From: Climacium dendroides
Lineage: Eukaryota; Streptophyta; Bryopsida; Hypnales; Climaciaceae
Direction of reading: 5' to 3'
Length of the DNA stretch: 64,000 nt
NCBI GenBank assembly: GCA_950106755.1
Contig: OX467083.1
Span: forward strand, 471,501-535,500
This document shows, one piece after another, positions 12,449 through 54,228 of the stretch. Position numbers and translations under genes: made by a program. Below the pieces are notes generated by a model. It made no database searches. It saw only the letters and a program-made list of their open reading frames with translations, and was not told where the DNA came from. The first letter of the stretch is position 1. The number at the start of each line of letters is the position of its first letter.

Positions 12449-12457
12449 TTTGAATGA
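12449..12457. repeat. Left 9-bp target-site duplication of element 1
   Basis: TTTGAATGA, identical to 33147-33155. Nine base pairs is the usual Mutator-superfamily duplication length. Confidence 0.75.
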
Positions 12458-12600
12458 ACAGGGTTGCTAGCGTGTGAGCCTGTGAGCGTGAGCATGTGAG
12501 CCTGTGAGCGTGAGCATGTGAGCCTGTGAGCGTGAGAGCGGGAACTTTTTTGCTGGAAATTCAGATGAAGGACCTATGACCGTGGATCTTATGATTGTTC
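12458..12600 (+). repeat. Left terminal inverted repeat of element 1
   Basis: Begins ACAGGGTTGCTAGCGTG, then nearly three 22-bp tandem units (GTGAGCCTGTGAGCGTGAGCAT) to about 12538, GAGCGGGAA, and the subterminal block GACCTATGACCGTGGAT at 12574-12590. The reverse complements of these blocks occur in the same order at the other end and at 54.06-54.22 kb. Confidence 0.75.
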
Positions 12601-12722
12601 ATTTTTATAATTTTGAAGACAAAATCTTTCTGGATTGTTTAGGAAAAATGGTTAATAATTCAATCCAAATAAACCCAAACAATTGTACATGAATTATTAC
12701 ATATAAGTGGTTTACAGTATGA

Positions 12723-12822
12723 AGGTTTAGGGTTTAGGGTTTACGGTTTAAGATTTAGGATATGTAGTGGTAAGTTATTCTATACATGTGTTTAATGGTA
12801 TTGAATGTTTAGGGTTTAGGGT
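12723..12822 (+). repeat. Interstitial telomere-like TTTAGGG tracts
   Basis: Short runs of TTTAGGG at 12724-12752 and 12809-12822 with degenerate spacers. A degenerate CCCTAAA run is at 33441-33488. Too short for a true telomere relic. Confidence 0.7.
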
Positions 12823-12950
12823 TCACTCCAAGACAAAATTTGAAAATAACAATGTGTACAATGAATGTAACCATAAAACACACAAATCCACTCATATGAA
12901 AAAAGAAATACAAGAAACTATAACTCACAAGACATGTCTACCTTGTGAAT

Positions 12951-15156
12951 CTAGGCAACAGAGGATTCGGTTGAAGAATCATTGTTAGTAGAAGAATCAG
13001 AAGTCTCTCTACCTTCCGATGCACTTACATCTAAATACTCTAACACATTTAAAGCATAAGTGTCTTGTCGCTTCTTTGGTTTAGAACCACCAAACTCTAT
13101 AAATGCCGAGGCCATCTGCTCTGCATACACTAGCAAATGAAAAGACTTTTCCGGAGTCAAAACAAGTCTTCTTTTGCACAATGTTGCATCGTGGAATGTC
13201 ACTTTTTGGTGTCTGCAAAATCAAATTAAAATATGTTAAAATCATAAACACAAGCAACAAAATATTCACATTGAATGCACACCTCTAAAAACTTACTTAC
13301 TAGTGTTTTGATTCCGAGCAAAACTAAAGACCTCTACCTCCATTGCATCAAGATCTTTAATATTGTCATCCTCTTCCTCTTCTTCTTCTTCTTCTTCTTC
13401 TGTTGTCTCTTCCTCCTCAATCATCTTCTTCATAGGTAGCAAGATCGCGTTGAAAATGGCTTCATCCTTCTCCAAAGCTACAACATGTCGGCCCGTCCCT
13501 CGACATGCCGTAATTGATGCACCTAACAATAAACACATGCAATTCATTAGCAAAATTGGGGATTCAGAATTTTATAAATGAAAACAATTCCACTTGAGCT
13601 TAACCTTACCAGTTGCTCCTGTATTATCGAAGACAATGTCTCCTTCGCTTGTTGTTCCTTCAATGATGAATTGAAGAAGCCTTGCATCTTTCTCACGAGG
13701 ACCCCGCCACGGTATGCTTCCATTCATCAACATACTGTCAATGGTGGAATAGTTGATCAACGTATCGTCACGTTCAAGATCTACTTTGGCCTTCTTCATT
13801 GCTTCAGTCAACTTGAACTTGAACTGAGACTTCCGTCTCTTGTCAAGCTTCTTCACCAACAACGAGATTCCGAACTTCATTGTCTGCAAGTCCAAAATTC
13901 AATTAAACATTTATAATACATAATGTAATCAATCCCAAGCACAAAAATAAAACAACCACTAAATTGCAAGACATCCATACCGTGTTTGTCGGATTGAGGC
14001 CTGAAGTCAAGTGCATGCGATTGATTCCCAACCACTCTTTCAACTTTAAGAATGGATATACCTGAGTCAAACCAACCACCACGCCCCTTGCCTTTGCACT
14101 CCAGGAATGAAAAATGACAAAACAACCATTGTCTTGCAAATATTTCGTTGCAAATAAAATTGCCTGTTCAATCTCTTTGAACTCTTTATCACGGTTCCAT
14201 TCGGGCACATGGTTTTCTGGTACAGACACTTCTGGAACAGGGAGGTTTTCTTGAAGGTCAAACAAAATGAGATCAACTCCAGCCTTTTTGCTCATCTCAC
14301 CATTGAACATGCGAGTCTTGCCATCAGCCACCTACATACAAAATATCTATAAATGATTCCAAGAATTCAAAATAACAAGTTCATGCAATATGTTGATATT
14401 GTGACATGGCAAAAACTCAAATATAAAATACACACCTTCACCAAGAACTCCATAACTTCCCCATAGCATGATCCATTTCCCTTGCCTTCATTTTCCATCA
14501 CATCAATGATAGAGTTGTTGAGAATCAACTCCTCCGTGTTCACCTCCTCGTCATCTCCAATAGCAATCACTTGGGTGCCTTGTGTGACCATCTCTTCAGT
14601 GAGCTCTTGCAAGACCACCTTCCTCTTCACGCCACTACGTGTTCCAGACTCCATTTGCGATCCTTGGTCCACTGTACAAGATCCAGGCACTTGATCTCTA
14701 CCCTCCACCTTCTTCTTCCCTTTACCTTTATACTTCCCTTCCTTCTCTGCCTCCTTCTCCTTCTCAGCCAACTTTGCTAAACGCTCTGCTCCTTTCTTCT
14801 CCTTGTTAGCCTTCATGTCGTTTTCTTTTTTTTTCTTCTTCTCATCTGCAATTGTTCTGCGTAAAATAGCTTTCTTCTTTTGGGCATCGGGAAGGTCCGC
14901 AAATTTGGGCACCTCTAAATCAATCACCCCAAGTCCGTCAAATGATTTGCGCAATGTAACTTCTGAAGAGTGGGTGTACTCGAGTGGGCACTCCAAGTAC
15001 CATCCGCCACCAACCAAATTAGCTGTTGTAAACGTCCGGAGCTGAGTGGGTGAAAACATGCACTCTTTTGAACTCCGATCCACCCAAGACATAAGGAAAG
15101 GAGGTAGAGAGCCTTGTGAAATAGCGCCTTTAGAAACAAGCTCAAGATTGAAGTAC
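12951..15156 (-). CDS. Beta-class amino-methyltransferase-like protein of element 1 (intact, five exons)
   Basis: Exons 15156-14436, 14331-13981, 13883-13610, 13522-13297 and 13212-12951 join in frame at GT-AG sites with no stop, about 610 codons; the first exon starts at an acceptor, so an upstream exon is missing or lies across the insertion. Order: a conserved N-terminal block (FTTANLVGGGWYLECP), a Lys/Glu coiled coil, motif IV-like VDLILFDLQENLPVP, DNGCFVIFHSW, motif X-like PWRGPREKDARLLQF, motif I-like GDIVFDNTGATGA followed by GTGRHVVALEKDE, an acidic run, and LTPEKSFHLLVYAEQ. This IV-X-I order is that of beta-class N6/N4 DNA methyltransferases. The catalytic S/D-PPY is D-LQEN and the AdoMet DPFxGSGT loop is DNTGATG, so it may be a non-catalytic or altered enzyme. 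The paralogue at 51486-53692 keeps D-CQEN. Confidence 0.7.
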
Positions 15157-15330
15157 CTAGAATATGAGCACAATCATAAGCCAATGTTTGAAAAGATAGT
15201 AGCCTATATAATTTTTAGAATATTAGGTCTTGTATTTTATCAACTTCAACACTCATAAATGTTCTAAGAACTCAATTGAACATGAAATGAATCCCTTCCA
15301 AAATTACATTGAACTATGCTTCACCAAAAG

Positions 15331-15405
15331 GTGGGGTACAAGAAGGGAGGCAGAACACCCCTGTTGGGTCCGAAGGAGGTATTCATGGTCCCTTTTGATA
15401 CTCCA
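15331..15405. repeat. Hairpin P1 (GGGTCCGA core)
   Basis: Arms GGGGTACAAGAAGGGA and TCCCTTTTGATACTCC pair with a few mismatches around GTTGGGTCCGA. It lies 176 bp upstream of the first methyltransferase-like exon. Confidence 0.65.
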
Positions 15406-15748
15406 ATTTTTTTAGTTTTTTAATTTTTAGTCGGAAAAATGAACAATTTTCATTCATAAGGAGAAACACAACATAGAACCAGAGGAAAGGTCCCTAGAAA
15501 ACTTTTATTAACTTTTTTTAAATGAACATCAACAAGAAAAAATGAACACAAGGTAAATTCCAATTGCTAGTTTTGAGGATCAAAAAATATTGTCTCTTTA
15601 TTATTTTCTATTCATTTGCCTAAAAATAATTTATAAAAAGGAAATAAACATCTTGAAATAAGTAACCATTCAGAAATGATCCAAACTTATTATTCATCTA
15701 CCATATCATTTAAAAAAAAAATGATAAGTTCTCTTAGAAAACAAAAAA

Positions 15749-15823
15749 TGGGGGTACTGGTAGGGAGCCCTTGTACCCCCTTCGGATCCGACGAGGGTAT
15801 GAACGCTCCCTCCCAGTACACCT
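15749..15823. repeat. Hairpin P2 (TCGGATCCGA core)
   Basis: Arms GGGGGTACTGGTAGGGAGC and GCTCCCTCCCAGTACACC pair well around CTTCGGATCCGACGAGGG. Between the inserted CCGGA-rich element and the methyltransferase-like gene. Confidence 0.75.
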
Positions 15824-16299
15824 ACTTTTGGATTCCCAAGAGATTTGAAGAAAAATTACAAAAATTGAAAAATAATTTCTTAATTTTTATTTCACTTGTC
15901 AATTCCAACATTAAATTATATATTTGAAATCTTACCGGTATAGAACCCTCCGGACGGCTTGGTCCGATCCTTCGCGACTCGAGAATGAATCATGCTTTTT
16001 GAAGTTGTTGGTTCTTGTGACAACTCATATTTTTTATTTTTATTTGTTTACCTTTTTGAGCGAACCGGAAATTAGAAATAGGTATCCAGATTCATCTAGA
16101 GAGAAAAATAAATCCAAAAATAGTCACAAAAGGACCTTACAGAACTAATCCGGTTTTAGGTCAAAGCGGAACGGATTAGATGTTCAACCGGATAGTATTT
16201 CCAACCGGAATCTTGTTGACCGGATTAGGAAATAACCGGATGTCAAGAACCGGACCGGATATCCGACCGGTCATAAAGACAGTCCAGGGCGTCAGGACT

Positions 16300-16306
16300 A
16301 TATAAA
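16300..16306 (+). promoter_or_regulatory. Probable TATA box of inserted element A
   Basis: TATAAAG about 315 bp before the first ATG of the element's ORF, within CCGGA-rich sequence. Confidence 0.4.
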
Positions 16307-16618
16307 GTCTGGCCTTGCCCATTTTCAGGTCTTTGGATTTCCACGTGTTGTTGTGTCCTGATTTAGCGCTTGACGTTTCTATCGTTGACCACGGCAAGGG
16401 AGAGGAAGTACAAGAGGGTACGGAAGTGAGTGACGGGTGTGAGACGGAGAGATCTCCTCCGGACATGAGTGGGTGAGACCTTGAGTGTGAGCGGATACGT
16501 GAGAAGCTAAGAGTGTGAGCACGCCAGTAGGTTAGTTTATAGGCGGAGCGGAACATCTGAGTGTCGCGCGCTCCCTTTTTAGGACTGTAGAGAGTGAAAA
16601 CCGAGTAGAGCTACCCTC

Positions 16619-18295
16619 ATGCCGCGGCTGAACCGGAAGAGAGGTTCTAACACCCCGCCCCCGAGTGAAGTAAAGCTTAGAAAAGTGGTTCCGGTCATGC
16701 CAACCAAGGAACCGGAACAGGGAGAGTTTAGAGAGGATTTGTCGTTGATGGGTTGTCAGGGGTTAGCTTTGAAACCTTGGGGTTTCAAAGATGAGAGGAT
16801 GGTTAGAGAAATCCTGAGTGGCGTATCGAATTAGTTCGATAACACCCTGAGAGGGAATCCGGTCCAATGGACCGAGGCTTTGTGGCGGGACATATACGGA
16901 TTCCGGCCAGGAGGACTCGGCCTTGCCAACCGGAAGGATGATTTCGTCCAGGGCAAGTTTGGAAGCGTAGTAAACCCGAAGGACGGCTACGCGGTCGAAG
17001 ACTGCCTTGATGATCGGGAGCGACGCCTGCTCCAGTTCTTGGTTCCGGTTTTGCATCCGGAAAAGCCCACCAGGGTGACTATCACCTTGGCTAACACGAT
17101 TTTCGGAGCGCTGAGCGGAACCCGGAAAGTAGACTGGGGCCGGATCTTCTTTGATCTGGTGTCCCAGCTTACTACAAGAGTGGAGAGAAGTAGGGCTACC
17201 CCACTGTGCCCTTATGTGTACCACCTCTACCAGCAACAGGAACTGCTGACGGAAGTGGAGCTGAAGGTGTGGAAGGCCCAGGAGCGGACTATGAAGTACG
17301 GCGAATCCGAGTCCGACCAAGAAGCGGATTCCGGAAACGAAACCGAGGAGGAGGAAGAAGAAGAAGAGGAAGAGGAGGAACCGTATGTTCCCAACAAGAG
17401 GCAGAAGACCACGCCGACTCGGAATCGAGGAACGCCCCCGGGACATTCGCGTCCGCGCAGAAGTGAGACTCCAACCGGACCGGATGTGGCATCCGGATCC
17501 GGGACCAAAGATCCGTTCGACGAGTTGGTTGGAATCCTCTACGGAATCCGGGCGGATTGGGAAGTTAAGAAGCGAGCGCTCGGGGAGATCGCGGAATTAA
17601 TCGAAGCGGAACCGGACAGTCAATTGCCGTAGAAGGTGGCTAAAAGTGTTATCAATCCGGAAGAGCTCCGGAAGATGAAGGAGGAAAGCAAGCGGCAGCA
17701 CGATGAGGTGGACACCCTCAAGGCCGAACTATTCGCGTTGCTTGAGAATGCCACCGCGACAAAGGAGATGGCGGAGGAAATGAAGAAGTTGGCCGCGGAA
17801 GTGAAGGACATGCTTGGAGGACCCGGAGCCGCAGTCACCAAGGCGCGCCTGTTCGAAGAGGAGGTGCATAAGGACAAGAAGATATCCGGAACCAAAGTAG
17901 TGCACATCCTCACCGATTTTGAGGAGCAAATGGAGAAGCTCCTATCTAAGGCACGGGAGTCAGCGGACCGGATTGTGGAGAGTAGCCAGAAGTTGACAGA
18001 AATTTTGGTCCGGCTCTCAGAAATTTCTCTTCCGGACTTGTTTTCGGAAGACGTAGCTCATGAACCGGGAAAGGACAAGACGCCCCAGTCAAGTAGGGCA
18101 AAGAAGGAGACGCCCTCGACCGGACATCAGCCGATAGATTTGGACTCCTCGGAAACTGAGGAAGAACATCCGGTTCTACCTACGGATGGAGAACGGAACC
18201 GGAATCTAAATGAGGTCTTCGAGCAGTTGGAGAGACCTGATAAGAGCCCTACCATTGGATCCCGAGTGTATGAGACGGAACATGAAGGATTGTAA
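16619..18295 (+). pseudogene. Retro-element/transposon-type protein of inserted element A, two in-frame TAGs
   Basis: A single frame of about 559 codons interrupted only by TAG near 16832 and near 17630. The N-terminal half has conserved blocks NPKDGYAVEDCLDDRERR, HPEKPTRVTITLANTIFGAL and YVYHLYQQQELL, shared with the ORF at 47972. The layout (viral-capsid-like or plant-transposon-protein-like helical domain, then an acidic run of 15 Glu/Asp, a basic stretch, and a Lys/Glu coiled coil) suggests a gag-like or transposon accessory protein, but I cannot name the family. The C-terminus has PIDLDSSETEEE, a SUMO-interacting-like motif. The first TAG aligns with CAG (Gln) in the paralogue. No reverse transcriptase is visible in the element. 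Confidence 0.5.
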
Positions 18296-19072
18296 AAATA
18301 GGACTTATAGATAGGAACCGGAATAGAATCCGGTTAGGATAAGGTAGGACCGGATTGTCAGCGCTTTCAAAGGCGGAAATCATGTATTCACTTTTTGCTT
18401 TTTGCTTTTTGTATATAAAACAGTCTCTGAGCTGGAGACGGGGGAGAGTTCTTTTGGCATTTCCTTGTGTACTTTCCTTTAAACTAACTTTTGTGTATTT
18501 TCCCTGAGTATTGGTAAGAGTGCACTGAGTCAGAATAGGAAGGTGAGTACGGAGGTGTTGGTAGAGTTTCTCCCCTTGATGTATGTTTCCGGTTCTAGGT
18601 ACATGTGAGTAGGGTATGAAGAGTTAGGAGTGGATTCCAGTGCCTCAGCAGCTACAGAAGTTTAGCATTCCGGGTGAGAGATCCGTTGATCAGGCTAGGC
18701 GGATAGGGAGGGATTCCTTAGCTGCGCTAGAACTCCTGGGTGGGGAATCCGGTCGAGTATCCTGACTCCTGTGAGGTCTTGCCACCGTTGTGGGTGAATG
18801 GAAGAACTTTCGTGGGTGTTGGAACGGACAGATTCACTTGTAGCCACCGAACTTCATGCGGAACGGATCAGTGTCAACGTCGTTGTAGTATGAGAGGATC
18901 GTACGGGGGGTCTTTGTGTGACCTGTGATTCGGATTGCTATCCGGATTACTGTAAAGGATCAAACCGGATCCGTGTTAGTTAGGAGATCTGTGGATAGGA
19001 AAGTGGGTCTTCAGCCACTATAAGTCACGGAAGGAGTGGTGGGCCTACCACTTTCAAAAGCAAGCGGCGAAC

Positions 19073-19093
19073 CCTCTGATGGTAAAACAGAGG
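19073..19093 (+). repeat. Conserved small hairpin in inserted element A
   Basis: CCTCTG-ATGGTAAAA-CAGAGG. The same stem and GGTAAAA loop occur in copy B at 50846-50866 at the same distance from the 3' border, in otherwise diverged sequence. Confidence 0.55.
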
Positions 19094-19382
19094 TAAAACT
19101 AAACCGGGTACGGAAGGGTGGACCGGATCGGATCCGCCTAGGAGAATATATAAGACCGGAAGTTGTAGGGTCCAGAATTCAGAAGTCAGTCCAGAAATCG
19201 GGGAACTAGTATAACCGGAAGTAGGAAACAGTCCGGTCGAAGCTTTCCGGTTGGTTTTGGATGTTCCGGTCGTTAGAGGTAGAACCGGAAAAGTAGATTT
19301 AAGGGGTTTAATTGAGTTTATCTCCTTGTTAGAGTTAGCTACTTCACAGGATCTCGTGGGTTCGATCTTTAGGGTCATTTTG

Positions 19383-21353
19383 TTATGCTCTAGAGTGATT
19401 TTTGTGAGTATAATAGGGAAATTGCTTACTCTGTGCTGCGACAGTTCCCTTCAAAGTTGGGCCAAACGCATATTCCCATAGCTTCACCCTCCACCCCTGA
19501 ATGTACGCCGCTAGAGTTTCTGGGGGGTTGGGCAAGTCCATGTTGATGACTAGCTTGTCATTTGCCACAATGTCGTCTAAATACTCCTGAGCCGCGTCTT
19601 CAAGCTACATGAAACAAAACAATTAACTTTCTCATCCAAGAAATGCAACTTCCATTGAACAAAAATTTATTCATTTCAAATGCAGCAAAGGGCATGAAAT
19701 TGCATTCAAAATAACTATTCTTGACAACAACCATTTTATATGGTAAGGGACATTACCCCGGCCCACCAAACAATTTTTCCAAGAAAAATTGTGAATTTAT
19801 CTTCTGAGACTGGGGGCACTGGAAACTTCAATGCCTCTTTTGAAGCACCGGAAGAATTCCACCATTTTAAGACTTTGAGCTTATGAGCTGCAGACATTGT
19901 GCTTGTTGCAAGTAATTGTAGCTTTTCCAAAGTCATTTCAGGAACCTCATTTCTAACCCAATGCTCCTCCACCTACAAAATAACATTATGTTAATAAATA
20001 TGCATCTTTTTCGCAAAATAAGCAAAACAAATAACTCATTTGATTGGAATTTTTAAAATTACCTCTTCAAGAAATTATTTTCCAAGAGCAGGATCTGCAA
20101 TGGCTAGTAACTTGCCCATCTTTCCACGTAACTTTGAGACTTTTTCTTTTGCTGCAGATCTCATGGCGTCAGCAACTCCTCGGTTGGTTCTTTCTTCAGC
20201 AGGTGTCTTATTAAGGTAACGTCGAGCAGCAACGTCCGCAGCCTGAGAAATTTCATGCTGCAAATGATATTCATCACCAAAAATTTGTAAGTAATGAAAC
20301 TCAGAATTTAGAGCGCCTACCTTATTTTTTTGTAAAGAAAAAGAATGTAGTAGGCAAAATTGAACTCACCCTAAAATTAAATGATGTGAAAACTTCCACG
20401 GGCATGGAATACCACGCCTTTCTACCCATTTGATACACGCATTGCTTCCTTTCTGAGGGCCTCAACATCTTGTAGATCTTCTTTATCTCCATTTTCCCGT
20501 ACTTTTGCACACGGTACAACGTGTGTACCAAATTCGTCTTCACATGTGAATCTTCAGTGGACCTGAAATATTAAACTCAAATTTTCAATTCACACAGCAA
20601 TCACACAATCTATCATAAACCAACATGAATAAGATGAAATATAAATAAACAATGGAAAAATTAAGAAAAACAAATCACGTACTTGTTAATTGCATGCATC
20701 ACTTGCATCGTCATTTCCACTCTTCCTTTGGTTTCCAGCATGATGCAATCCACCGAAAAATGCCAATTCATGTCCAAAGGATACTTTCTTTGGATATGGC
20801 TCATCCATGCAATCTGTCGATGGTTGCCATCACATATGAAGAACTTCATATTCCTCATGAAATGCAACTCTGGCCTTGTTTCCAAAAATGCTAGGAACTC
20901 ATCATTTCTTTGTTGCCATAGGGGGCCCCAATTTTGAACCTCCTCCTTATTGAACTCTGCTCTCTCGCCGGCCTCATTGGTTGTCGAAACATAAAATGAC
21001 GTTGCTCCATCTCGATAACCATGAGCAAAGTCTTGCTCAAGTTTCTGTAAATCGGAAGAAAGTGTTGGCCTAACCATCGGCATTGGCACTAACCTGCAAA
21101 GCGGGATCTTCATGCGCGATAAGCTCTCTGGCTTAAACCTCAGCATCGATAATGTTGCCACAGAGTCGACCTTGTGAAAACGACGAAGCTCATCCTCAAG
21201 AAAATCTTTGTCTTCTTCCTCAAACTCTGTCTCCTCCAGTGCCTTGTCCCAAATCTCATCTCGACCCACTCCTAACATTACTTCACCTTCTATGTCTGGT
21301 TGTTGAGAGTCATCCGTTGCAGGTGTAACTTGGTGTTGCTGGTTTTGGGACAA
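19383..21353 (-). pseudogene. ParB/sulfiredoxin-fold-like protein of element 1, five exons, one stop
   Basis: Exons about 21353-20683, 20562-20370, 20257-20063, 19972-19757 and 19604-19383. The first has an acidic N-terminus, then IPLCRLVPMPMVRPTL, GYRDGATSFYVSTT and FFICDGNHRQIAW. The DGNHR motif and its setting resemble the ParB N-terminal/sulfiredoxin fold, which in ParB proteins binds CTP and works with palindromic parS sites, and in phages is often paired with a DNA methyltransferase. Later exons give WYSMPVEVFTSFNF, a helical RxxL-rich part, EVPEMTLEKLQLLA and YIQGWRVKLWE. TAA interrupts exon 3 near its end. The CCGGA-rich element borders the last exon, so the natural C-terminus is uncertain. 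The domain call rests on motif resemblance. Confidence 0.5.
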
Positions 21354-21715
21354 TATCAGTGGCGAATCTTCTCTCTATAAAATAAAAAACACCAAATAGT
21401 AGAAAGACACTCCTTGTCAATAGAATGTCAAACAAGAAGCTTAAATAAAATGTATTCATCATAAAATTATATGTGCAATGATGTATACAATAATAGTAAG
21501 AATTTATTACCAAAAATTCTAGCTATGCTTTTGGCCAGTTGATAAAACAAAATGCTAGTTATTTATGAATGAAATTTATTAATTCCATACAATGAATCAA
21601 TCTTAAATGTATTTAAATAGTGTACGTCATACATACATAGATACTTGACAAATGAAAATTTATATATGCATAGAATAAATTGCCACAAATTCATGTATAC
21701 TTTTCATTAAAAAAA

Positions 21716-22174
21716 TCATTCAATGTCTACATCATCTTGAAAGTTGGAACACTGGTAAATGATGACCAAGCGATTATATCGCAATTGTTTCTGTCCTGAA
21801 CAATCACAACGCACAGGACCCCAAGGACTAGAAATCGATGGGGACAAATCAGCATCAGAGCTGAATGAGGAAATGTCACAACCCTCTGTGTCAGAACTCT
21901 CTACTAAGAAAACAGGTTTTCTAGGATCACGAGGCTTTGGGAAACTAATTCGGCTTCCCTTATCTTGCTCAAGCTCATCAGCAGCACGATCACACGCATC
22001 CATAATATCATCAAAACTCACCACATCCACTTCAGGTCCTAAATTGTCGCTTTCTATCATTGGAAGTGGCCTTGGCGTCTGTGTAACTCGCTCCTCCACA
22101 ATCTCCTGGCCCAAGACTTCAGATTCTGCATGCGAAGATGATGCCATGCTAGGATTCATGGCCGTCGTGTCCAT
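21716..22174 (-). CDS. Acidic protein ORF1 of element 1
   Basis: An open frame of 152 residues, first gene of the minus-strand set. It is rich in Asp, Glu and Ser. The block EVDVVSFDDIMDACDRAADELE aligns with ELVSFNDVMEATEFAVDAFE of the copy-2 ORF at 44925, and later VFLVESSDTE aligns with IFLESLDTE, so this is a real conserved protein rather than a chance frame. No known domain. It lies about 360 bp upstream of the ParB-like gene on the same strand; it could be a separate gene or a 5' exon of it. Confidence 0.6.
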   Translation of the reverse strand: MDTTAMNPSMASSSHAESEVLGQEIVEERVTQTPRPLPMIESDNLGPEVDVVSFDDIMDACDRAADELEQDKGSRISFPKPRDPRKPVFLVESSDTEGCDISSFSSDADLSPSISSPWGPVRCDCSGQKQLRYNRLVIIYQCSNFQDDVDIE

Positions 22175-22199
22175 CTATAAAGCATTCCACCAAACAATT

Positions 22200-22960
22200 T
22201 AATATTTGACATAATAATTAATGCAAAGAAATATGAATCAAGGGATGCTCCTCTAAAAGCTTTGGAAAGCAAAAAAAATTAAAAAATTAAAAAATTAAAA
22301 AAAATTAAAAAAAATTAAAATCTAATTTTTCTAAGGCAAAGTATTTTTAAAGAACACTATAAGTGTAGAAGCCAAGTGTCACCTATGCATTTCAATTGCT
22401 TCATCTCTTATTCAAGGAAATAATTAAGGAATTACTTTGATTATTATAGTGATGGTATCTAATAACAAACTTTATCCTTTGAACTTATCCCAATATAAAA
22501 TGAAAGAAAAATGAGGAAAAAATGAGATACATGAATGAATCTAAGTAAAGAAATTTACAATTTAGTTATTTACCCTAAACTATCTAAATATGTTTTCAAA
22601 ATAATAAAGACAAAAAATCTGTAGAAGCCTTTCAAAATTTCATACTTTAATATAATTTATTCAATGTGAAATTAATATACAATATGCATGCATAAAATTA
22701 GTCATTCTTAAAATTTTCATATCATTTTCAATGTTTGTTTTAATAAATTATGAACAACTGAAATTACATGTAGACATAAAATTATGTATCCTACTATATG
22801 AATTATTGTAATTTCAGTGAAATCTACTCAAATAATGAACTATTACACATATTTGCATGATGAGGAACATGTAATAGAAAATATCATTAAAAAAATCAAC
22901 ATTGGAAGGAAAACAATAAAAAAAAGGATATAATTCTAGTTTGGGTCCTCTCATGTGACG
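22200..22960. other. AT-rich stretch, no gene
   Basis: Very AT-rich with an AAAATT run at 22270-22320. Likely the promoter-side flank of the acidic ORF. Confidence 0.5.
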
Positions 22961-22968
22961 GATTCATG

Positions 22969-23037
22969 TGGTGTCTTCAGATTCCGTTTAATGCCCGTCG
23001 GATCCGACAAGGGTTATGGAAGAACTTGAAGACACCC
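22969..23037. repeat. Hairpin P3 (GTCGGATCCGAC core)
   Basis: GGTGTCTTCAGATTC pairs with GAACTTGAAGACACC around the perfect 12-bp palindrome GTCGGATCCGAC. Upstream of ORF1 of element 1. Confidence 0.75.
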
Positions 23038-23104
23038 TCAAAATTAGTCATCGAAGTGGTACTTGTATTCTATTTTTTATTTGACCCTCTCATGTGACGG
23101 AATA

Positions 23105-23178
23105 CAGGGGTAGCTGCAGCTACTTACTTGACCCTAGTCGGACCCGACGAGGATGCACTGCGATGCTCCCACTACCCG
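23105..23178. repeat. Hairpin P4 (GTCGGACCCGAC core)
   Basis: Weaker outer arms (GGGGTAGCTGC against GCTCCCACTACCC) around GTCGGACCCGAC. Confidence 0.55.
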
Positions 23179-23650
23179 TAGATTCTGACTTTTGGAAAAT
23201 AGATCGATTCAAATTAAATAATTCGGCTATCTCCAAAAATGAAATTCTTGGAATCTCCATTATGGAGTTTTCTTTTGTATATTTGCTACTCTCACCAAGA
23301 GGGAATATCTTGATTCCAAAGTCATCCAAACTACAACTAACACATCCTGATTTTTGTACTCAACAATGCAAGAGGTCACAAATCATCAACAAACTTAGGA
23401 ACCTAAGGTCACCAAATCCAAAACTAACTGAATCAAGAATTCAAGGAAGTAGTTCATCACATTATGAAATGGACAATGCCTGAACCCTACCTATTTGTAA
23501 ACAAAGCTAGTCACCAAATCCAATCCGAACACACATACGCATCTTGGACGCATCCCAAACGCAAGACAAAACAATTTGACTTCTCATGAACTGACGCTGC
23601 AGACAGAGCATGCATTGGTACCGAGGGAGGAACGTCTCAAATGACAGAAA

Positions 23651-23728
23651 GTGGGGGTATCTGGAGCATTGCGAGGGAACCCTGTCGGGTCCGACGGAGG
23701 TCGACAGGTTGCTCAAGATACCCCCCAA
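23651..23728. repeat. Hairpin P5 (GTCGGGTCCGAC core)
   Basis: TGGGGGTATCTGGAGCA pairs with TTGCTCAAGATACCCCCC around CTGTCGGGTCCGACGG. Confidence 0.75.
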
Positions 23729-23729
23729 A

Positions 23730-24540
23730 ACGGCCGCGGCATACTTTCGTTCTTCCGGACTCACAGACTGGACCCCGCCTTGGCCAGTGACGGTGTCGAC
23801 ACAATCCCGCCTCATTCCCTCACTTTCCGACCTGAATGTAACCCCTCGACCGCCACCGCGCCTCGCGTCACATTGATCCCCAGGGCTCGCTGGAGGAGAG
23901 CTTCGGAAGGGAACGGGAACGCTAGCGAAGGAACTGGGGTCGACCTGGCGGAGCTGGACACTCGCCCCAAGATTGCTTTCGCCGCGGGAGTCGCCGCAAG
24001 ATCAACTGGGCGCTGCGTATCGATACAAGACCAATCTTCCACGTCCGCCACCGATCAAGGCGACGGACTTCATATGGACAATTCAATTCACAACGTTGAC
24101 AAGCAGGACACCCAGGGGGCAAGACCCGCTCGGGTAGCACGAGGTTCCGCAGACACAAATATCAATGCAATCGGAAGCCGGGAATCTTGACAGACAAGTC
24201 CGCCTAGCGTGCATCGAAAGACGGTCATCGTTGCGTCGATGGATCTTGCACCGATTCGCCCCCCCCTCCCCTCACGCCACGAGACCCTGAGGGGCGCGGC
24301 AACGGTCTTCAGGGAGTCTCAGACGTCATGAGATTCTCACGCGGACAACGCTAACAACGCAGACAGGGACACACTTCAACCAAGACAGATAGGGACACGA
24401 CACCCACCTTCCAACCGCACTAATAATCCAAGTTTCAAACTTTCGTTTCCCAAGCAATGGGCGAATCACGCCCCCCGGATGCCCACCACCACCACTCATG
24501 TCCAACGATCACAATAGTACTAGGCGACATCGCAAAGAAG
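23730..24540. other. GC-rich stretch, no assigned gene
   Basis: Much richer in G+C and CpG than its surroundings. Frames of 78-179 codons occur on both strands (for example 23651-24190 plus, 23812-24051 minus) but show no recognisable domain and no counterpart in element 2. Confidence 0.4.
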
Positions 24541-24795
24541 TCGGGACCCGTAGGCACCGAGCAGATCATGCAACACAGTCGGGACCCGAGGCACCGAGCA
24601 GATCACACAACCACGACATGGACATGCAACACAGTCGGGACCTAGAGGCACCGAGCTGATCACCCAACCGCGCTCGCACTCTCCATGAGGATCTCGTGTA
24701 GGCACCTAACAGATCACCGGACCGCACTCTCCCTGAGGATCCCGTGTAGGCACCGAGCAGATCACCCAACCGCACTCTCCCTGAGGATCCCGTAA
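24541..24795. repeat. Tandem repeat with GGCACCGAGCAGATCAC unit
   Basis: Five or more diverged units of roughly 38-60 bp, each with TAGGCACCGAGCAGATCAC and often CGGGACCCG or CTCTCCCTGAGGATCCCGT. Lies within the hairpin-bearing region of element 1. Confidence 0.7.
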
Positions 24796-24960
24796 AAGGT
24801 AGCAACAAGCTCTGAAGGACCCTTCCCCCAGGAAACTATAACAAGGCTGGTGAGCCAAGATCAATGCTCAGACTCAGACTACCAATGATCTCTCAGACTC
24901 TCAATAGTGGTCTCGAAGTAGGGGTTCACATCTGAATTTGCCTTCGGGGACAAAATACAA

Positions 24961-25030
24961 GGGTAACCGGAGATCACCGCAGGACCCCTGTTGGGTCCGA
25001 CGCTTGTCCGCAGGTACCTCGATCGACTAC
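24961..25030. repeat. Degenerate hairpin P6 (TTGGGTCCGAC core)
   Basis: Core CTGTTGGGTCCGACG with weak arms. Recognised mainly by the core and position. Confidence 0.45.
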
Positions 25031-25199
25031 GGGAATCAGTTCACAATGTAGTCCAAGCTACCTCCACACCCACTCAGATTGAACAAAAGAGAAGTTCATG
25101 CTATCTAGAATCGTACCTGCAAACTTGCATCTTGATTCTCGCGTTCCAATGCTTCCTCAAAATCTTCCTCTAGTGGGCGGCTTCGAGTTCTCCTACGAG

Positions 25200-26480
25200 G
25201 TTGACCTTTGCTGGGGCGCTACAAGGTCGACATCATCAGAAATTTTAAATTTCGACTATGCAATTTCAAGTTGTGAACGAATTGAGAATAAGAAAGAATG
25301 CCGTTTTGAATTCCAAGCAAGAGTAGATTGATCAAAGTTGCCGGAGGTGTGCTGCAAGCTTCACTTCGGGCTGCAGGCCTTGATACTAGTGGTGAGGGGT
25401 GGACTCTTGTGGCAAAATCGTCTCCAGACGTTGAAGATAGGAGAATTCCAAAAAAAGCTACTAGAATTCTATTTTCGAAATGGATGTAGCATGGCTTCTG
25501 GAAAGTTGCAACTAGACAACTGGTCCCGAGAAAGAGACGGTACAGTTGTAGAGTTTGGGTTTCCTTTAACCCAAAAGTGACATGAGATATTCGGGATCCA
25601 AAAACATCCTTGCTTTTGAAGCTATGCGGACCTAAATTTCTTCAAGTTATACAAATCTCAACCATACAATCTCGTAGTAAACATGTTTTAGATGACGTGC
25701 ACAAAACTTGAAGTCAATTGGTCGCATAGATTGCGAGATCATAATGATTAAGTGTTGAAAATGAATGCTGAAATTTTTCCCAAAACACATTTGGAGGTGA
25801 AATTTGATTTCTAAACCTACTGAAATGAAAGAAATTTACAGTACAAAGTGATTTAAAACTACTATACAAACACATTGGTGAAAAAAAAATTCATGAAATT
25901 GAGTCATGGTGTCTAAAAAACAGCTTCGAACTGCCAAAAAATAGTCAAAAAAAGTGCAAAAACCACATCTAGGGCTGAACCTCTCCCCACTAGAATGCTT
26001 CTCAGTCACTCAATTCTTCTTGGATTGACATGAAATTTTAGCCGCACAAACTAGACTTGTAGGCACAACTTTCCCAATAAGTTTTATTGAAAACGGACTT
26101 TGTACGAAGAAGATATAAGCCACCAAAGTTCACTGTACTCCAAAAATGACAGGGTTTAGAACTTCGAATTGCTCCCAAACATTCCAAACAACTTGGATTG
26201 ACATGAAAATTTTACCACAATAACTAGACTTCAAGAAAAACAAATCAAAACAAATTTCAATGAAAACAAATCATTAATGAAGAAGATACAAGTCCCTGAA
26301 GTTGCAGCCCTAAAATGCAATTTTGTGAACTTTTGCAAAGCTGTGCTCTTTGATTGGCTACTAAAGAAACAACACATCTTTGATTGATTTGAAAATTTAA
26401 CCACATAAACAAGAAGAATAAGTGCAACTTCTCCAATAAGTTTTAGTAGATTTGAACCTTGGATGGAGAAGTTATAGTAG
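25200..26480. repeat. Non-coding region with diverged ~170-190-bp tandem units
   Basis: Units starting near 26019, 26190 and 26378 share TTGGATTGACATGAAAATTTTA and an AACTAGACTT block. No gene is seen between 25040 and 26830. Confidence 0.5.
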
Positions 26481-26832
26481 ACTTAAAATTGTGTGAGGAC
26501 ACTTTTTGTCCTCCGTGACACTTTGGGACCCGAGGCTCGTGAACTCACCCATCTTTGCGATTCCGAGTTTCCCGCTTGATGGAAAAGAATGACAAAGTGA
26601 TAATAAACCACATAAGCTAGTAGGTTCTCAGATTGCACACCTAAGAGCTGAAACTTCATTTTGGAGAAGTGAGACGGCCTGGAATATTTTTTACATCTAA
26701 TTCCAACATATTGCAAAGCATTGAAAGGGTAAGAGTTGGTCCGTAGAATCTTACTAGTAAAAGTTGATCGCCTTCTGAGATGCCTTGCAAGCTTGTCATG
26801 CCCTCATCAGTTGTCTTCGTCCATTCTAACTC

Positions 26833-27069
26833 CTACACTTCTCGATCCATTTCTCCACCACTGCCTCCACTTTCAAAACGAAGATGTTTTTGAAGTTCTA
26901 TCTGCGACGACTGGCCTATCTTGGACGAAGTTTTCTTTGAGCGAGTCATTCTAGATCGTCTAAGTGACTTCTGAGATGAGAAATAAAGAGAAATACGTCT
27001 CTTCCATTTGTTTCTATGGTCTGGAACTACGTCTGTAAATCTATCACAATTTGTAAGCATGAATACCAC
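26833..27069 (-). CDS. Small basic ORF divergent from the element 1 transposase
   Basis: The frame contains LYFSSQKSLRRSRMTRSK followed by LQKHLRFESGGSGGE. The same protein pattern (NFFSSAKALKRSRMTR, then LRRVLRYETG) is at 40410-40751 in element 2, also divergent from a transposase. Conservation of sequence and placement supports a real exon; its true ends and start are uncertain (a candidate ATG is at 26949). It begins about 700-820 bp from the transposase ATG, so a shared bidirectional promoter region is likely. Function unknown; the Arg/Lys-rich start could bind DNA. Confidence 0.5.
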   Translation of the reverse strand: MVFMLTNCDRFTDVVPDHRNKWKRRISLYFSSQKSLRRSRMTRSKKTSSKIGQSSQIELQKHLRFESGGSGGEMDREV

Positions 27070-30000
27070 TACATAAGCCTCAGAGGTCTCAATCGATGAA
27101 AAGCATGGTGTCTATGTTAAACGCTGCAGATGGAAAGACATGAAAGAAGGAGATGTAGAGCCTATTTATTTAACGTTACCAACTAGGTTTGTTCACTCAA
27201 AGTCTCAAACGGCCTTGGAAGATTAGGGTTGGGAGAACTACCGCCTTTTTATTTGAATATTATGGACAGCCCACTTAACATTTGATGAGCCGTCTTCTAA
27301 TTCTAACACCTTATTAGATTCTGTATCTTTTACTCTAGGATATAAGACTGACACATTTGAATGAGCGATCTCTTTCACGCATTTTGTCAGAGCTGCCTTC
27401 ATTCATAAATATATTTTTTTAACAAACCTTTTATTGAACACGGCTACAACGGTAGACTCATAAATTTTTGTTTTTTGAATGAAACTTCTTCCAGAGTTGT
27501 GACATCCCATTTATTTCACTAAATTCTATTGAAAGCAACAATATTTGAACTAAATGACAGCTCTGCCATATGAATAATTTTTACACCTACTGACAACTAC
27601 ACTTCACCAAACAATTTGTACTTTTGGAATGGTATTGGTAGAATTGAAACAACATAATTTGTGTTTACTATATAGTACCTCACATCTTCTAGCTTCTGTC
27701 TTTATAGTTCAAGACTTCAATGTATCTCTTGCTTCTAAATCGTTTGTTTTGCACTGCTGTTTTATCACCATGGCTTGCATTAGAGTAGACGGTCATGCAA
27801 TTCCAGTGGTGTTTCCGTTGGCTGGTGGAAATCAAGCGAGAGTATCTAGTCATCTTCTACATGTATGTTTCAAGTTTGTTGAGTCTTCAATCTACATAGA
27901 AGAAGAGAGGAAGTCTGAATGTAGTGAGAACATGGAGTTTGTTCCTATTACAAAGAGTGAGGATGAGGATGGAGTTTGTTGGTTCCTTCCTTTAGGCAAC
28001 TATAGAGCTTATGGTCTTCCTTTGTCCATTCAAAATACATCCACGCAGATGGTCAATCGCCAATCCGATAACTCCACTGTAGATATGCCGTATGTCACAA
28101 GTGCAATCTCTCCTCGACCTCTTGAGAGCGAATTTCCAAGTCCTAATCCAAGTACTTTTCTATGCGCTGTAAAGATTGAGAAATTGGACTCTGTAATAGA
28201 TTTGTCAAGTGAATCAGAAGGAGAGTCACCTGACGTTACTGTCCGTAAGAAACCGCCATCCATTGGAAATAATGTTGATAGTCGTGAGATTTTTCATTCC
28301 TTTTCGGACACCCAAACCAATACTTCTACACAGTCTCCATTGTCTCGTCCTCCATTATATCCGCCTACACTTGATAGGAAAAGCATAATGGAATGCTTGA
28401 AGAATTTGAAGAGCATGCATAGATCTAGGAACGAACTGTCCACAATAGATTTGAATGCCATCAAGCACCATCAAGTTGGGTTTCTTCCACCAATCTTCAA
28501 TGGGGATGTCATCTTCGAGTTGCCTCCATGCCGCACGTGGCCATCTTCATCGGCTGCTAGGAATTTGGAGGGGATGAACAAACGTTATGATGGACATGTG
28601 TGGTGTAAGGTACAAACTACCAATATTCATAACCCTGATAAGTTGAAATTCCGGAAGTCCTATTGCGTTGGTCATCTTGTTTGTGTGAATCCTGATTGTG
28701 AATATGTGAAGAGAGCTAGTAAGCGCAATGAGACAGAGTGGAGTGGATATACAGTGTCTCCATTTGTAGTAGGCGACAATCCTTCTAAGGATTGTACGTT
28801 AGTTTGCAAACTTTGCAAAGAGACTCCAAAGTGTCTAAAGCAATGTAAGGCTAGAATATACTATTGCTATAGTGAGGTTCCTAAAGTGACAAGGGTTGCA
28901 ATTCATCTTGGATATCATTCTCATCCAGTAGCAAAAGGCATGTATAAAGATTCTGTAGACAAGATTTGCGAACTCATTGCAGAGCAAGTGGCAAAAACCC
29001 CTACTGCCACAAACTCTGCCATTGCTCTCTCTGCAAGCAAAGATTTCCTCACGACATATTTGTTTCGTAATGGAGAGGGAGAGAAAGAGATGTTGAAGGA
29101 TGAAGAGCTAAAAGTGGTTATGGATCGTTTCCAGTACCTAAGCAGTCCCAACATTAGAAACGTCATATCCTCATTTCGCTCAAACAACTATGGAGGCATC
29201 ATCGACAATATAATGATGATGAAGAAACAGTCAAAATTTGAATTCATTCACGACGGCGTCTTTCCTGGCCAAGGAAAGGAGAAGGTGTTCATTTTCAAGA
29301 TGCTCACTGAGGGACTTGGAAGTGGTGTGGACCTAGTGAAACGCATGCAACTTGGTGGAAATCTTCAGAATGCATGGATGATGTTCGACCACGTCAAGCG
29401 TGTAAAAGAGTGGACGACAATGGCTTGCCATGTGTATGATCCAGATTACAAGAGGGTCATGACCATTGGAATTTGTGATATGCAATCAGAAGATACCGAG
29501 ATTCAGGTTCTCTTTTGGAAGTGCTTGAATGCTGTAATGTCGCGACACGGAGTTGAAAACCCGAATTTTAAAGGATTTATGGCTGATAGTGCTATGGCCA
29601 ATTGGAATGCCGTACGAATTGTATACGGAAGTGGTTTTGCAGATCAGAAAATGGAGAACAGGGAAAGAACATGCTTATTGCATTGGAGTACTTCACTCCA
29701 AAAACACACACAGAAGTACATTAAAGAAGCGTTTCAACAGCAGCACACTTTACTTTGTAAACAGTACAAAGATGCAAAGTCCATGGAGGAAGCAAAAAAC
29801 AAATACTTGGCAATTCGGTCATGGTGGTTGTCGTCAGGAGCCACTACTAAAGATGCTCTTCACTACTTAGAACATTAGCTTGCCTTTTGGCATTTTCGAT
29901 ATAGGCAATAGGGAGGATTCATGCAAATGGTAAGTCAATTTCCTTGGACACCTTCTATCTTTGAAATTCCATTCGCAAATTTTATTTATTTTTAATTCAA

Positions 30001-30243
30001 AAAAATTTAGAAAAATAATTCATATTTATATAATTTACTTAGAATGTCGATTCGATTTCCTAAATCATTCCTTTAAGAAAAATAGAAATGTTAAGGACTG
30101 ATTCAAAGTTGGTGTATAAAGAAGGACAATAAATACATCCATCAAATAGGAGTTGTATACATTAGATGAATTTTAGCATCTTAGAAAAAATTATCATTTT
30201 TTTTCAAAAAATTTCACAAAAAATTAGTGTACAAATCTAAAGT

Positions 30244-30324
30244 GGAGGTAAGAGGAGGGACCTTCAATACCCCCTTCGGATCCGACGGGGCTATATTGGA
30301 TCCTTCTAAGTACCCTTACTTTGG
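30244..30324. repeat. Hairpin P7 in the transposase intron
   Basis: GGAGGTAAGAGGAGGGACC pairs with GGATCCTTCTAAGTACCC around CTTCGGATCCGACGGGG. Confidence 0.7.
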
Positions 30325-30528
30325 GTTCATGTTTGAGGAATTCGGACAAAAAATTGAAAAAAATTGAAAAAAAAATGTGATGATTGTTGGGGTGACATAA
30401 AATCCCTAATTTAGATGTAAGGGGTTCATTTTTTGCCTCCAATAAAACATTGAGTAAAGGTGTTTTGAATTTGTATTTTTGTTTCAGGTTTAGGAAGAAT
30501 TTTGAATTTTACCCCCTAAACCAAAAAC

Positions 30529-30604
30529 GAGGGTAGTAATAGAAATACCTGAGACCCTTGTCGGATTCGACGGGGGTATTTGAAGTCCTTATTAACACCA
30601 TCAC
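30529..30604. repeat. Hairpin P8 in the transposase intron
   Basis: Core TTGTCGGATTCGACGGGG with arms GGGTAGTAATA and TATTAACACC-type pairing. It ends 109 bp before the exon 2 acceptor. Confidence 0.6.
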
Positions 30605-32109
30605 TTTATATTTATGGACTTATAAATATTCATTTGTATCTCTGAGGGTTTTTGAAGATGGTATGAAATATTGAATCACCAAAGCGTAATATTTGAGTGG
30701 TTTCATTTTCAGGATTTGAGTTTGGAGGAACTTGCAGATATGCCTTCATGCAATTTGTCAGAAACTGTGCACAACAAGTGGCTTCAAATGTCTGGGAACA
30801 AAGGAAACAATCTCTTTGACGCCACATGTGATGACAGTATTTGTGCATGGATGCAAATGACAAATTACCGAGCGTACTTGAAGGGACACGCTTCTGGATC
30901 TGGTCCGTCGAAAGGAGAGCTAAAGTTGAGAGCAACAAGACGTAGTGGTGATCCTAAGAAAATTGCAGAGGCTTTGAATTCATTGCCTGGTTCTGAAGGT
31001 GTTGGAACTCGCATTCCACATTTAGAAGGAGAAGAGGTTTTTGGGAGCACAAAGAGGAAGTTAGACGTTCCCATTGGCGATGCAGGGGACTCGCATAGAC
31101 CTGATAAAGTTAACTTTTCCCAACCTCGTGTTCGGACATGGTCCACGACAGCGTCAATAGAATCTTCAGGAGATAAAGGTAAGCAACCTCAAGTGAACAC
31201 TCCGACACATGTTACGGTTACGTTTGAAAGTGATTGTGATACATCGAAATGGCACATTGCAAGGATTAGTCACAAGTCCAATGCAAAATGTTATGCTCAA
31301 CAACGAGATTCAAACATCACTTGCAAGGCAAAGATTGCCAAAGGTCGGAAGGGAACCCCTGCTCCAACCTATAGTGGAAGAAAGATAGATTACGGGACCA
31401 AGAAAGAAATAGTGGCAGACTTTTGGTTCTGTGCAGATGACATTGAACGGTGCGTCAAGGGTAACAAACGGAGGTGGGTTATAGAGTGGCCGGCGGTTCC
31501 TGAAGTATGACCAATCTTAACAGGAACAAATCTTACCCGAGAGGAGACGTTATTGTTGCAGCATGCTGGATTTCGACTTCAAGAGCGTTCTGTGTTATCT
31601 CCTCGACGACTATTCAGTATGTCTAAAATATTTGAGACTGTGGTATATGACGAACCAGTTCCAAAAGACGCACACGTATATCCAACTGTACGAAACAGTC
31701 GTACTATTCGCCGAATTACAAATGCACCTACAATTGAACAACGCAACAAGTGGGAGAGTGCTGGCAACATCAAAGGAGAGATATTGGGAGTGACGTTGTT
31801 ACCATTTCCTGGTTTAGGAGCGATTGTTTCACTACAAACTAGGGTTGAACCAAATTCAAATGTATATCGAATTACTGTGGGCATGTATCCATCGTGCACG
31901 TGTCCTAACTTTACTTCTATGGCAGTTTCAGCAATAGGAGGTCGACAGCAGTATGTGAATTGCAAGCATTTGTATTATCTTTTCCGGTACTTTTGCAAAA
32001 TGGACATAAATGAGGACAAGTTCATCCATGCACCAAGCTATAGCTTCAACGAGTTGAAGCTTATTTTAGTTAAGGTGGGGATAATAAGAATGCTAGAATA
32101 AGAGCAGGC

Positions 32110-32940
32110 ACTAGTTGAAAGTACTGTAATGGTATGATAGAAGACAAAATTTCATAGAATTCTAAATATTTTCTATTTACTAAGGAAGTTATCATTTTCT
32201 TACAAAATTTATCATTTTGTTCATTTCCTCTTTCCACTTGTAGTTTGGATTTCATTAATATTGATTCCAAGACTTCAATCATTATGTTTTTATTTGGAAG
32301 TTTGATTGCTTTGTCATTATTTTTTGAAGTATACTATGTGTTCATTGAAGTAAATTTTTTTATGTTGGTGATCACTTCATTAAAAAGGATTAATGCAGCA
32401 AGAGGTCCAAGAGACTTAAACATGAAGGCATGGATTCTTTATCTCTACTTTTTTTGGATCATTGTTGCAAACTATAAACCACACTTATGCAAGCATTCAT
32501 GGTAGTTTGTTAGCACAGAATATCGATGAGTGCTGAAAATAGAGAAGAGTGCCTAAACCAATGTTCCCCAGCTCCTATTCATATGTCCCATACCGATTGG
32601 CATTGCGGATTGCACCAATATAAAAGGTGTAATATCCGGTAGTCAGGTGTTGTAGAGGACTATTTAGGGAATAGACTTTCTCAATCATCTTGAGGAGAAT
32701 TATATTCCCAACACTCCTGTGATTTTGTTTAAAAAATTAAATGAAGCTTATACAAAGGATTCAAGTAGCACTTAATATATTTTTTAATCCACAGTCATAG
32801 GATAAGTGGTTATAGGTCCTAAATTTAGCTTTAATAGGAACTAAAACCCATTTTTTTTCTGAGGTACGCTTTCTCCTAAAATCCTAAACAATGACTTTCA
32901 TTCTCACCATGCGGTGGATTTTTCTAAAAGAGAATAATAA
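32110..32940. other. 3' flank of the transposase, no gene
   Basis: AT-rich. A copy of the subterminal motif (ATCCACAGTCATAGG) is at 32789, ahead of the main one at 32960. Confidence 0.5.
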
Positions 32941-32959
32941 ATTTCCAAAATATTTACTC

Positions 32960-33146
32960 ATCCACGGTCATGGGGTGCACGGATATAGGTCCCAAATTCA
33001 ACATAAACAACCAAAAAAATTGAATTTTTTGAATTCTTTTAGCAAAAAAAAATTTTATTAAACCAAAAATGAGAAATTTCTGGCTCCCCGCTTCCCGCTC
33101 GCTGCTCACAGGCTCACGGCTCCAGGCTCGCACGCTAGCGTCGTTG
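32960..33146 (-). repeat. Right terminal inverted repeat of element 1
   Basis: Read toward the end: ATCCACGGTCATGGG, then after an AT-rich spacer TTCCCGCTCGCTGCTCAC, GGCTCACGGCTCCAGGCTCG, CACGCTAGCGTCGTTG. This is the reverse complement of the block order at 12458-12600, with spacer differences. Confidence 0.75.
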
Positions 33147-33155
33147 TTTGAATGA
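33147..33155. repeat. Right 9-bp target-site duplication of element 1
   Basis: TTTGAATGA, identical to 12449-12457. Confidence 0.75.
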
Positions 33156-39030: not shown

Positions 39031-39039
39031 AGTTCGCTG

Positions 39040-40400: not shown

Positions 40401-40409
40401 AAGGCAAAC

Positions 40410-40751: not shown

Positions 40752-40759
40752 TGGTATCA

Positions 40760-41335: not shown

Positions 41336-41339
41336 TTGG

Positions 41340-54220: not shown

Positions 54221-54228
54221 ATTTAAAG

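Follow-up and report, generated by a model that had tools for sequence, protein, structure and literature searches.

Genes that join a ParB-like domain to a DNA methyltransferase-like domain are already known from a eukaryotic transposon. In Sola1-1_Ec32, a giant Sola transposon of ~21.5 kb from the brown alga Ectocarpus, the accessory gene opposite the transposase encodes a protein of 1104 aa with ParB-like and N4/N6 methyltransferase domains; the same article cites green and red algal cases (Iyer 2011; Petroll 2025) (PMC12477816). In Arabidopsis, VANC21 of the Mutator-like element (MULE) VANDAL21 binds a 9-base motif in dense arrays; VANC binds noncoding motifs of its own element family and induces methylation loss (PMC5735166). 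Here we describe an element of the moss Climacium dendroides in a stretch of 64,000 nucleotides (the window; contig OX467083.1, positions 471,501 to 535,500, designated C2:471501-535500 in our searches of the genome, 412.6 Mb in 123 contigs). We give about even chances to the reading that this ~17.3-kb, likely Mutator-like transposon encodes a ParB-methyltransferase (ParB-MTase) fusion that recognises palindromes in the element's own noncoding DNA.

By description, the moss element resembles Sola1-1_Ec32 in placing both domains on one protein opposite the transposase (1121 codons, as against 1104 aa), a layout matched here by predicted splicing, a Ceratodon gene model and the divergent orientation. 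It differs in that the Ectocarpus transposase belongs to the Sola superfamily and in that no palindromes are mentioned in the excerpt (PMC12477816). Like VANDAL21 with VANC, it is a probable MULE that encodes an accessory protein and has candidate binding motifs for it in its own noncoding DNA. Unlike VANC, which has another fold, the moss protein is a predicted ParB-MTase and its motifs are long palindromes; anti-silencing would here be an analogy. As in phage and plasmid ParB-methyltransferase proteins, a putative ParB/sulfiredoxin fold lies near a DNA methylase, and structure comparison gave a match to the DNA methylase of Mycobacterium phage Vincenzo in BFVD (rank 12, E 0.019). The introns and the eukaryotic transposon set the moss protein apart, and a search of viral contigs found no sequence-level relative.

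Our literature searches found no MULE with a ParB-methyltransferase gene, and neither 'ParB' nor 'moss' occurs in the text of PMC6446971. The statement in a preliminary description of this DNA that no MULE with this content was known holds within these searches, for MULEs only: the Ectocarpus Sola element is published (PMC12477816). What is new, as far as the searches reach, is that the host is a land plant, that the vehicle is probably Mutator-like and present in many copies, that motif IV is altered and that the palindromes occur.

Ends, copies and transposase of the element

The limits of the element (copy 1) and of its transposase are as follows.

12459..33146, unstranded: whole element, copy 1; 20,688 bp, ~17.3 kb without the nested insertion
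12449..12458, unstranded: left 10-bp target-site duplication (TTTGAATGAA)
33147..33156, unstranded: right 10-bp target-site duplication (TTTGAATGAG), unlike the left one in its final base
12459..12539, plus strand: left terminal repeat with 22-bp tandem units (AGCCTGTGAGCGTGAGCATGTG); unit number varies among copies
33104..33146, minus strand: right terminal inverted repeat, from end comparison
27629..29929, plus strand: transposase exon 1, Cys/His-rich, catalytic D residues by eye; stops here, open in the C34 sister
30713..32101, plus strand: transposase exon 2, with NLSETVHN and a C-terminal SWIM-like CxC...CxH, from motif reading

Genome-wide, the left end occurs at 28 places (93-100% identity), some lacking the outermost bases, where the number of 22-bp repeats varies, and the right end at 24 places (92-100% identity). 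Each of the 24 right ends pairs with a left end, and between them an MTase exon is followed by a ParB exon and then by a transposase exon at every locus, with partial ParB matches in two (C35:5056976 and C2:34254667). The 24 include the window copy as well as an exact duplicate of it at a distance of 77 kb. Because 24 near-identical loci carry both ends, a chance origin of the paired ends is excluded, and the early claim that one pair of ends encloses the transposase and the ParB/MTase genes is borne out; the refuting outcomes named along with it, genes that never share one pair of ends or structure searches showing neither fold, did not occur. From end to end, 16 loci measure 17.1-17.3 kb; one is shorter, at 16.5 kb, and the other seven reach 20.7-41.6 kb; the excess length of the window copy is the nested insertion, and we infer that nested insertions account for it in the other long copies too.

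The right limit, 33146, is the exact stop of the alignment with three sister copies. The left end starts with CAGGGTTGCTAGCG and the right end closes with CGCTAGCGTCGTTG; inverted ends had been reported from the outset, and they are short and imperfect, with 21 of the 30 outermost bases matching ungapped. MULE terminal inverted repeats are often long, and some groups lack them. Ten-base-pair duplications flank all 17 copies that were read at both ends, the window included: 14 are exact, two (the window among them) have one mismatch and one has two. In the C1:23.24M copy, an exact CTGCAATGTC duplication was read by eye from the flanks. The flanking repeat of the window, TTTGAATGA, is exact over 9 bp, its full 10 bp being TTTGAATGAa and TTTGAATGAg, and the 9-bp length first assigned to it was rejected in view of the 10 bp of the sister copies. 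The preliminary description had suggested looking for an empty site. For the C3 copy, DNA of the window in which its two flanks are adjacent (25726-25888, 81% identical; 25875-26329, 75% identical) serves as a paralogous one.

The arrangement recurs beyond the near-identical family. First-look searches gave 1,007 candidates for the ParB exon (150 scored), 909 for the MTase exon (150 scored) and 1,274 for the transposase exon (145 scored). A listed MTase exon lies 1.5-6 kb downstream on the same strand of 61 of the 150 listed ParB exons (controls 1 and 0), and a listed transposase lies 5-16 kb upstream in divergent orientation of 56 (controls 2, 1 and 2). Without the first 26 rows, the window's own family, these counts are 38/124 and 35/124, and with two further partial family members dropped 36/122 and 33/122. 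The lists hold the best 145-150 of 909-1,274 candidates, and absent partners therefore mean little. At the C41 locus, a transposase exon 1 match of 68.6% identity is divergent from the ParB match at C41:468341; in L089, a stretch of 8 kb that lies upstream of the C39 ParB gene and begins 4 kb away from it, no transposase match was found.

In the transposase, we read by eye the residue pattern D...D..CxxH...NLSETVHN, a candidate motif of a MULE-type DDE transposase domain. SWIM zinc fingers are common in MULE transposases; that profile (PF04434) reached 12.8 bits (E 0.088) here, below its cut-off of 19.6, with CTC...NCKH visible. An hhalign comparison of the transposase with four MULE open reading frames (ORFs) of the genome gave a probability of 0.3 per cent. 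MULE target duplications are 8-11 bp long (PMC6446971), a range that includes the 10 bp of all 17 copies read. We conclude that the element is probably Mutator-like, on the basis of 10-bp duplications and motifs with no profile match. The transposase lies where it was first placed.

A predicted ParB-MTase fusion gene

The ParB-like and methyltransferase-like parts are predicted to be exons of one gene. In the C3 copy, a ten-exon model in which all borders are GT-AG and the phases agree connects their ORFs to a frame of 1,121 codons, interrupted by a single stop. In the C34 copy this model has no stop before its end, with AT instead of GT after exon 4, and the transposase there is open as well, so that one copy keeps both frames intact. 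A Ceratodon purpureus protein, M758_1G295400 (P0121, 1147 aa), is 30-33% identical over its length with the same domain order and shows the fusion in a gene model made independently; it was the closest annotated full-length protein in a search that scored the 7,990 candidates sharing the largest number of words. Separate ParB and MTase genes were rejected on the splice phases and the Ceratodon fused protein. The positions first given for the DGNHR, MTase-like and acidic ORFs are right, while the two separate proteins give way to predicted exons of one gene. A second Ceratodon protein, KC19_7G101700 (P0122, 661 aa), is 59% identical to P0121 and lacks the ParB part. The best match to P0121 in a PDB sequence search had E 0.053.

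20683..21374, minus strand: ParB-MTase exon 1, putative ParB/sulfiredoxin-fold domain with DGNHR (gene model; structure comparison)
20370..20562, minus strand: exon 2 (gene model)
20063..20257, minus strand: exon 3 (gene model); internal stop in the window copy
19757..19972, minus strand: exon 4 (gene model)
15936..19604, minus strand: exon 5, split by the nested insertion
14436..15156, minus strand: exon 6, linker, charged region (gene model)
13981..14331, minus strand: exon 7, methyltransferase motif IV region, DLQE (gene model)
13610..13883, minus strand: exon 8, motif X and the first part of motif I (gene model)
13297..13522, minus strand: exon 9, remainder of motif I and motif II (gene model)
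12951..13212, minus strand: exon 10, finishing at the stop codon
21716..22174, minus strand: acidic ORF, with a counterpart in copy 2 at 44925-45350; its own gene or an N-terminal exon of the ParB-MTase gene
16015..19443, plus strand: nested 3.4-kb insertion, foreign to the element, with gag-like ORFs at 16880-17632 and 17636-18295; absent from the C3 copy

For the ParB exon, structure comparison supports a ParB/sulfiredoxin fold, which backs the ParB-like identity proposed at the start; DGNHR resembles the ParB/sulfiredoxin motif. No ParB family match was found for this exon in the Pfam, NCBIfam and PHROGs profiles, and in viral contigs searched with the ParB alignment 78 stretches fit the pattern, none of which was confirmed.

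A methyltransferase fold is predicted for the MTase part. Pfam PF01555, with a cut-off of 26.7 bits, scored 16.4 bits (E 0.0092) against the window family's own protein and 30.4 bits against P0121. The methyltransferase motifs stand in permuted order, IV ahead of X and I. At motif IV, N6/N4 DNA methyltransferases are expected to have (D/N/S)PP(Y/F/W). The window family has DLQE, L083, L084 and copy 2 (a diverged relative in the window) have DCQE, and L082 has DCPE; the aromatic residue is missing in all five elements read, which departs from the catalytic motif. The Ceratodon proteins have DTPF and DQPY instead. Both domains are under constraint between copy 2 and L084, close relatives among the five elements, with ratios of nonsynonymous to synonymous substitution (dN/dS) of 0.06 for the ParB core and 0.14 for the MTase core; in most of the remaining pairs, synonymous substitutions have reached saturation. 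The MTase domain is thus retained as a protein, and its catalysis is doubtful because motif IV is altered in all five elements.

One alternative is that the fusion protein is an active N6-adenine/N4-cytosine methyltransferase guided by its ParB-like domain, with which the element methylates its own copies. The constraint on the domain, the retained motifs I and X in permuted order and the Ceratodon motifs would fit such an enzyme, and the same reading has been proposed for the Ectocarpus protein (PMC12477816). We nevertheless regard it as unlikely, given DLQE, three cases of DCQE and DCPE without the aromatic of DPPY/F/W and the Pfam score below the cut-off. The methyltransferase-like protein noted earlier is present, and the epigenetic self-marking suggested earlier as one possible role is weakened by the loss of the motif IV aromatic.

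The window copy is broken by a stop in ParB-MTase exon 3, by a 3,433-bp insertion in exon 5, which is 3669 nt long as compared to 236 nt in C3, and by stops in the transposase. Its gag-like ORFs were considered as element cargo and rejected, since the insertion is absent from the C3 copy and the relative in copy 2 lies elsewhere in the other orientation.

Palindromes and their candidate recognition

Palindromes were scanned for with two requirements, 22 or more matches between 35-base arms and a G+C content of 35% or more at the centre. Eight were found in the window; they all lie within copies 1 and 2, and the other 25.9 kb have none. When one mismatch is allowed, the 38.1 kb of the two copies contain the core TCGGATCCGA 12 times, once within the nested insertion, and the rest of the window does not contain it, as compared to a mean of 0.8 and a maximum of 4 in 200 controls with shuffled two-base blocks. 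When 84-base stretches at 14 sites were folded against 60 shuffles each, 11 sites gave z of -3.1 to -11.5 and one gave -2.1; site 37993, one of the 11, is not symmetric about its centre. The clear palindromes have a common length of ~72 bp (arms ~36), G-rich ends and mostly a common centre, and they lie in the transposase intron, in ParB-MTase intron 5 and between the two genes.

15327..15404, unstranded: palindrome around 15369, ParB-MTase intron 5; z -3.1
15750..15823, unstranded: ~72-bp palindrome centred at 15786/15787, ParB-MTase intron 5; z -7.6
22961..23044, unstranded: gapped palindrome around 23003, between the divergent genes; z -4.9
23106..23179, unstranded: palindrome around 23143, between the divergent genes; 22/35 symmetric, z -0.3
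23648..23731, unstranded: gapped palindrome around 23690, between the divergent genes; z -5.6
30244..30317, unstranded: palindrome around 30281, transposase intron; z -3.8
30524..30607, unstranded: palindrome around 30566, transposase intron; z -2.1
42834..42907, unstranded: copy 2 palindrome around 42871; z -11.5
43126..43197, unstranded: copy 2 palindrome, core GCCTCGGATCCGAGGC; arms 32/36 matching, z -10.7
43529..43602, unstranded: copy 2 palindrome; arms 31/37 matching, z -11.0
44113..44186, unstranded: copy 2 palindrome around 44150, from the palindrome scan
51251..51324, unstranded: copy 2 palindrome around 51288, intron ahead of the methyltransferase part; z -3.9

Palindromes of the same build are also present in L035, L036, L037 and L090. 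A genome-wide search gave 396 places with the exact 16-bp core GCCTCGGATCCGAGGC and none with the reversed control. We examined the positions of the first 50 of these places, on C1 and part of C2, which form 24 clusters; for this comparison the ParB exon of copy 2, known from the window, was added to the gene list. Twelve clusters have a listed element gene no more than 15 kb away, as compared to a mean of 0.48 and a maximum of 4 under random placement. For eight clusters a ParB exon is no more than 5 kb away, where random placement gave a mean of 0.09 and a maximum of 2.

The parS sites at which ParB proteins load, and from which they spread, are palindromic. The moss palindromes look parS-like and are candidate binding sites: because one element holds both a putative ParB-fold protein and many palindromes, we propose that the ParB-like domain would load at them as ParB does at parS. 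With motif IV altered, a role of the MTase-derived domain mainly in holding or reading DNA, or in recruiting partners, is favoured over methylation. The effect may be that element copies stay open to the transposase or are shielded from host silencing, as VANC does for VANDAL. More tentatively, and with odds we place well short of even, a ParB-parS pair may have been turned to self-recognition, in which subfamily-specific 72-bp palindromes and a matching ParB clamp with a noncatalytic MTase would let the protein spread over the copies, which would escape silencing. If true, transposon counter-defence would here be connected with a DNA clamp known from bacteria and with a DNA methyltransferase that has been altered. 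Hundreds of palindrome copies cluster at the same elements, with recent near-identical copies, in a land plant, and a defined pair of protein and DNA makes self-recognition by a plant transposon testable. For the algal ParB-methyltransferase transposons the excerpt names no target site (PMC12477816); the moss element offers a candidate one.

Several observations weigh against this proposal. On the side of the transposon, PF10551 has no match in the catalytic segment of the transposase at E up to 10, while it matches 41 other places in the genome that do not include this transposase, and an AlphaFold prediction of the transposase structure failed (predicted local distance difference test score 33.8). 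As for the palindromes, two of the 14 folded sites show no fold (z -0.3), the centres in L035 and L037 differ from the core by more than one base, and searches of L082, L083 and L084, which consist mainly of ParB-MTase gene sequence, gave no palindrome. What the palindromes have in common is limited to the centre and the G-rich ends; their stems vary yet stay paired, more as a hairpin constraint than as a protein site would have it. Two of the 12 gene-near clusters are copy 2 and its 77-kb duplicate, and, as a weak point, the other 12 clusters have no listed gene nearby, where the lists hold the best 145-150 of 909-1,274. The palindromes might thus be unrelated to the protein.

In that case they could be RNA or DNA hairpins, or tiny foldback repeats, that serve expression or replication of the element while the ParB-like protein acts elsewhere. 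Stems of equal length and different sequence that stay paired, and the location of several palindromes in introns, speak for hairpins; the centre TCGGATCCGA, however, is largely kept in sequence, which pairing alone would not need, and the palindrome sites of the window are confined to the elements. We judge this explanation improbable, to much the same degree as an active methyltransferase. Far less probable still is that the element merely picked up the fusion gene from its host, in the manner of Pack-MULEs, and makes no use of it: MULEs do tend to acquire host gene fragments (PMC6446971), but the same gene order in many diverged copies, the low dN/dS and the two Ceratodon relatives speak against it, though no search aimed at a host copy was made. 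That two unrelated elements, one nested in the other, only look like one composite is already refuted by the common ends and duplications, for although a 3.4-kb insertion is indeed nested in the window copy, the whole set lies between one pair of ends at 24 loci and the layout is repeated in copy 2 and at the C41 locus.

Copy 2 and further observations in the window

Copy 2 is inverted relative to copy 1.

36812..54221, minus strand: copy 2, a diverged relative of the element in inverted orientation, truncated on its transposase side by a CACTA-like terminus
45565..46254, plus strand: copy 2 ParB-like exon, from sequence comparison
51487..53690, plus strand: copy 2 methyltransferase-like exons, motif IV DCQE, from sequence comparison

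The CACTA-type terminus TTTTCTTGTAGTG at 36799-36811 abuts the cut transposase; a search of the 64-kb window did not find the other terminus.

C2:482449-514669 recurs at a distance of +77,220 bases with both ends, the MTase, ParB and transposase exons and the copy 2 palindrome core. Across this repeat, sequences L001 and L002 are identical letter for letter, as are L009 and L010; it is either a recent segmental duplication or an assembly artefact.

The insertion at 16015-19443 has TG...CA ends and a 4-5 bp duplication, and no repeat pair was found in it. Its gag-like ORFs are related to those at 47972-49582 (52% identical over 148 residues), which occupy a different place and orientation in copy 2. 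DNA of the left flank of the C2:51.17M copy also occurs in the window's insertion near 19066-19090, and this similarity suggests that the element family moved after that type of insertion had spread.

Stretches of the types VIDLSSESEGE and IILLSSDSEED are found in the acidic ORFs at 21716-22174 and 44925-45350 and in the N-terminal part of the transposase; they may be SUMO-interaction motifs. At 62357-64000, a repetitive reading frame, open at the window end, presumably resembles a pentatricopeptide-repeat protein.

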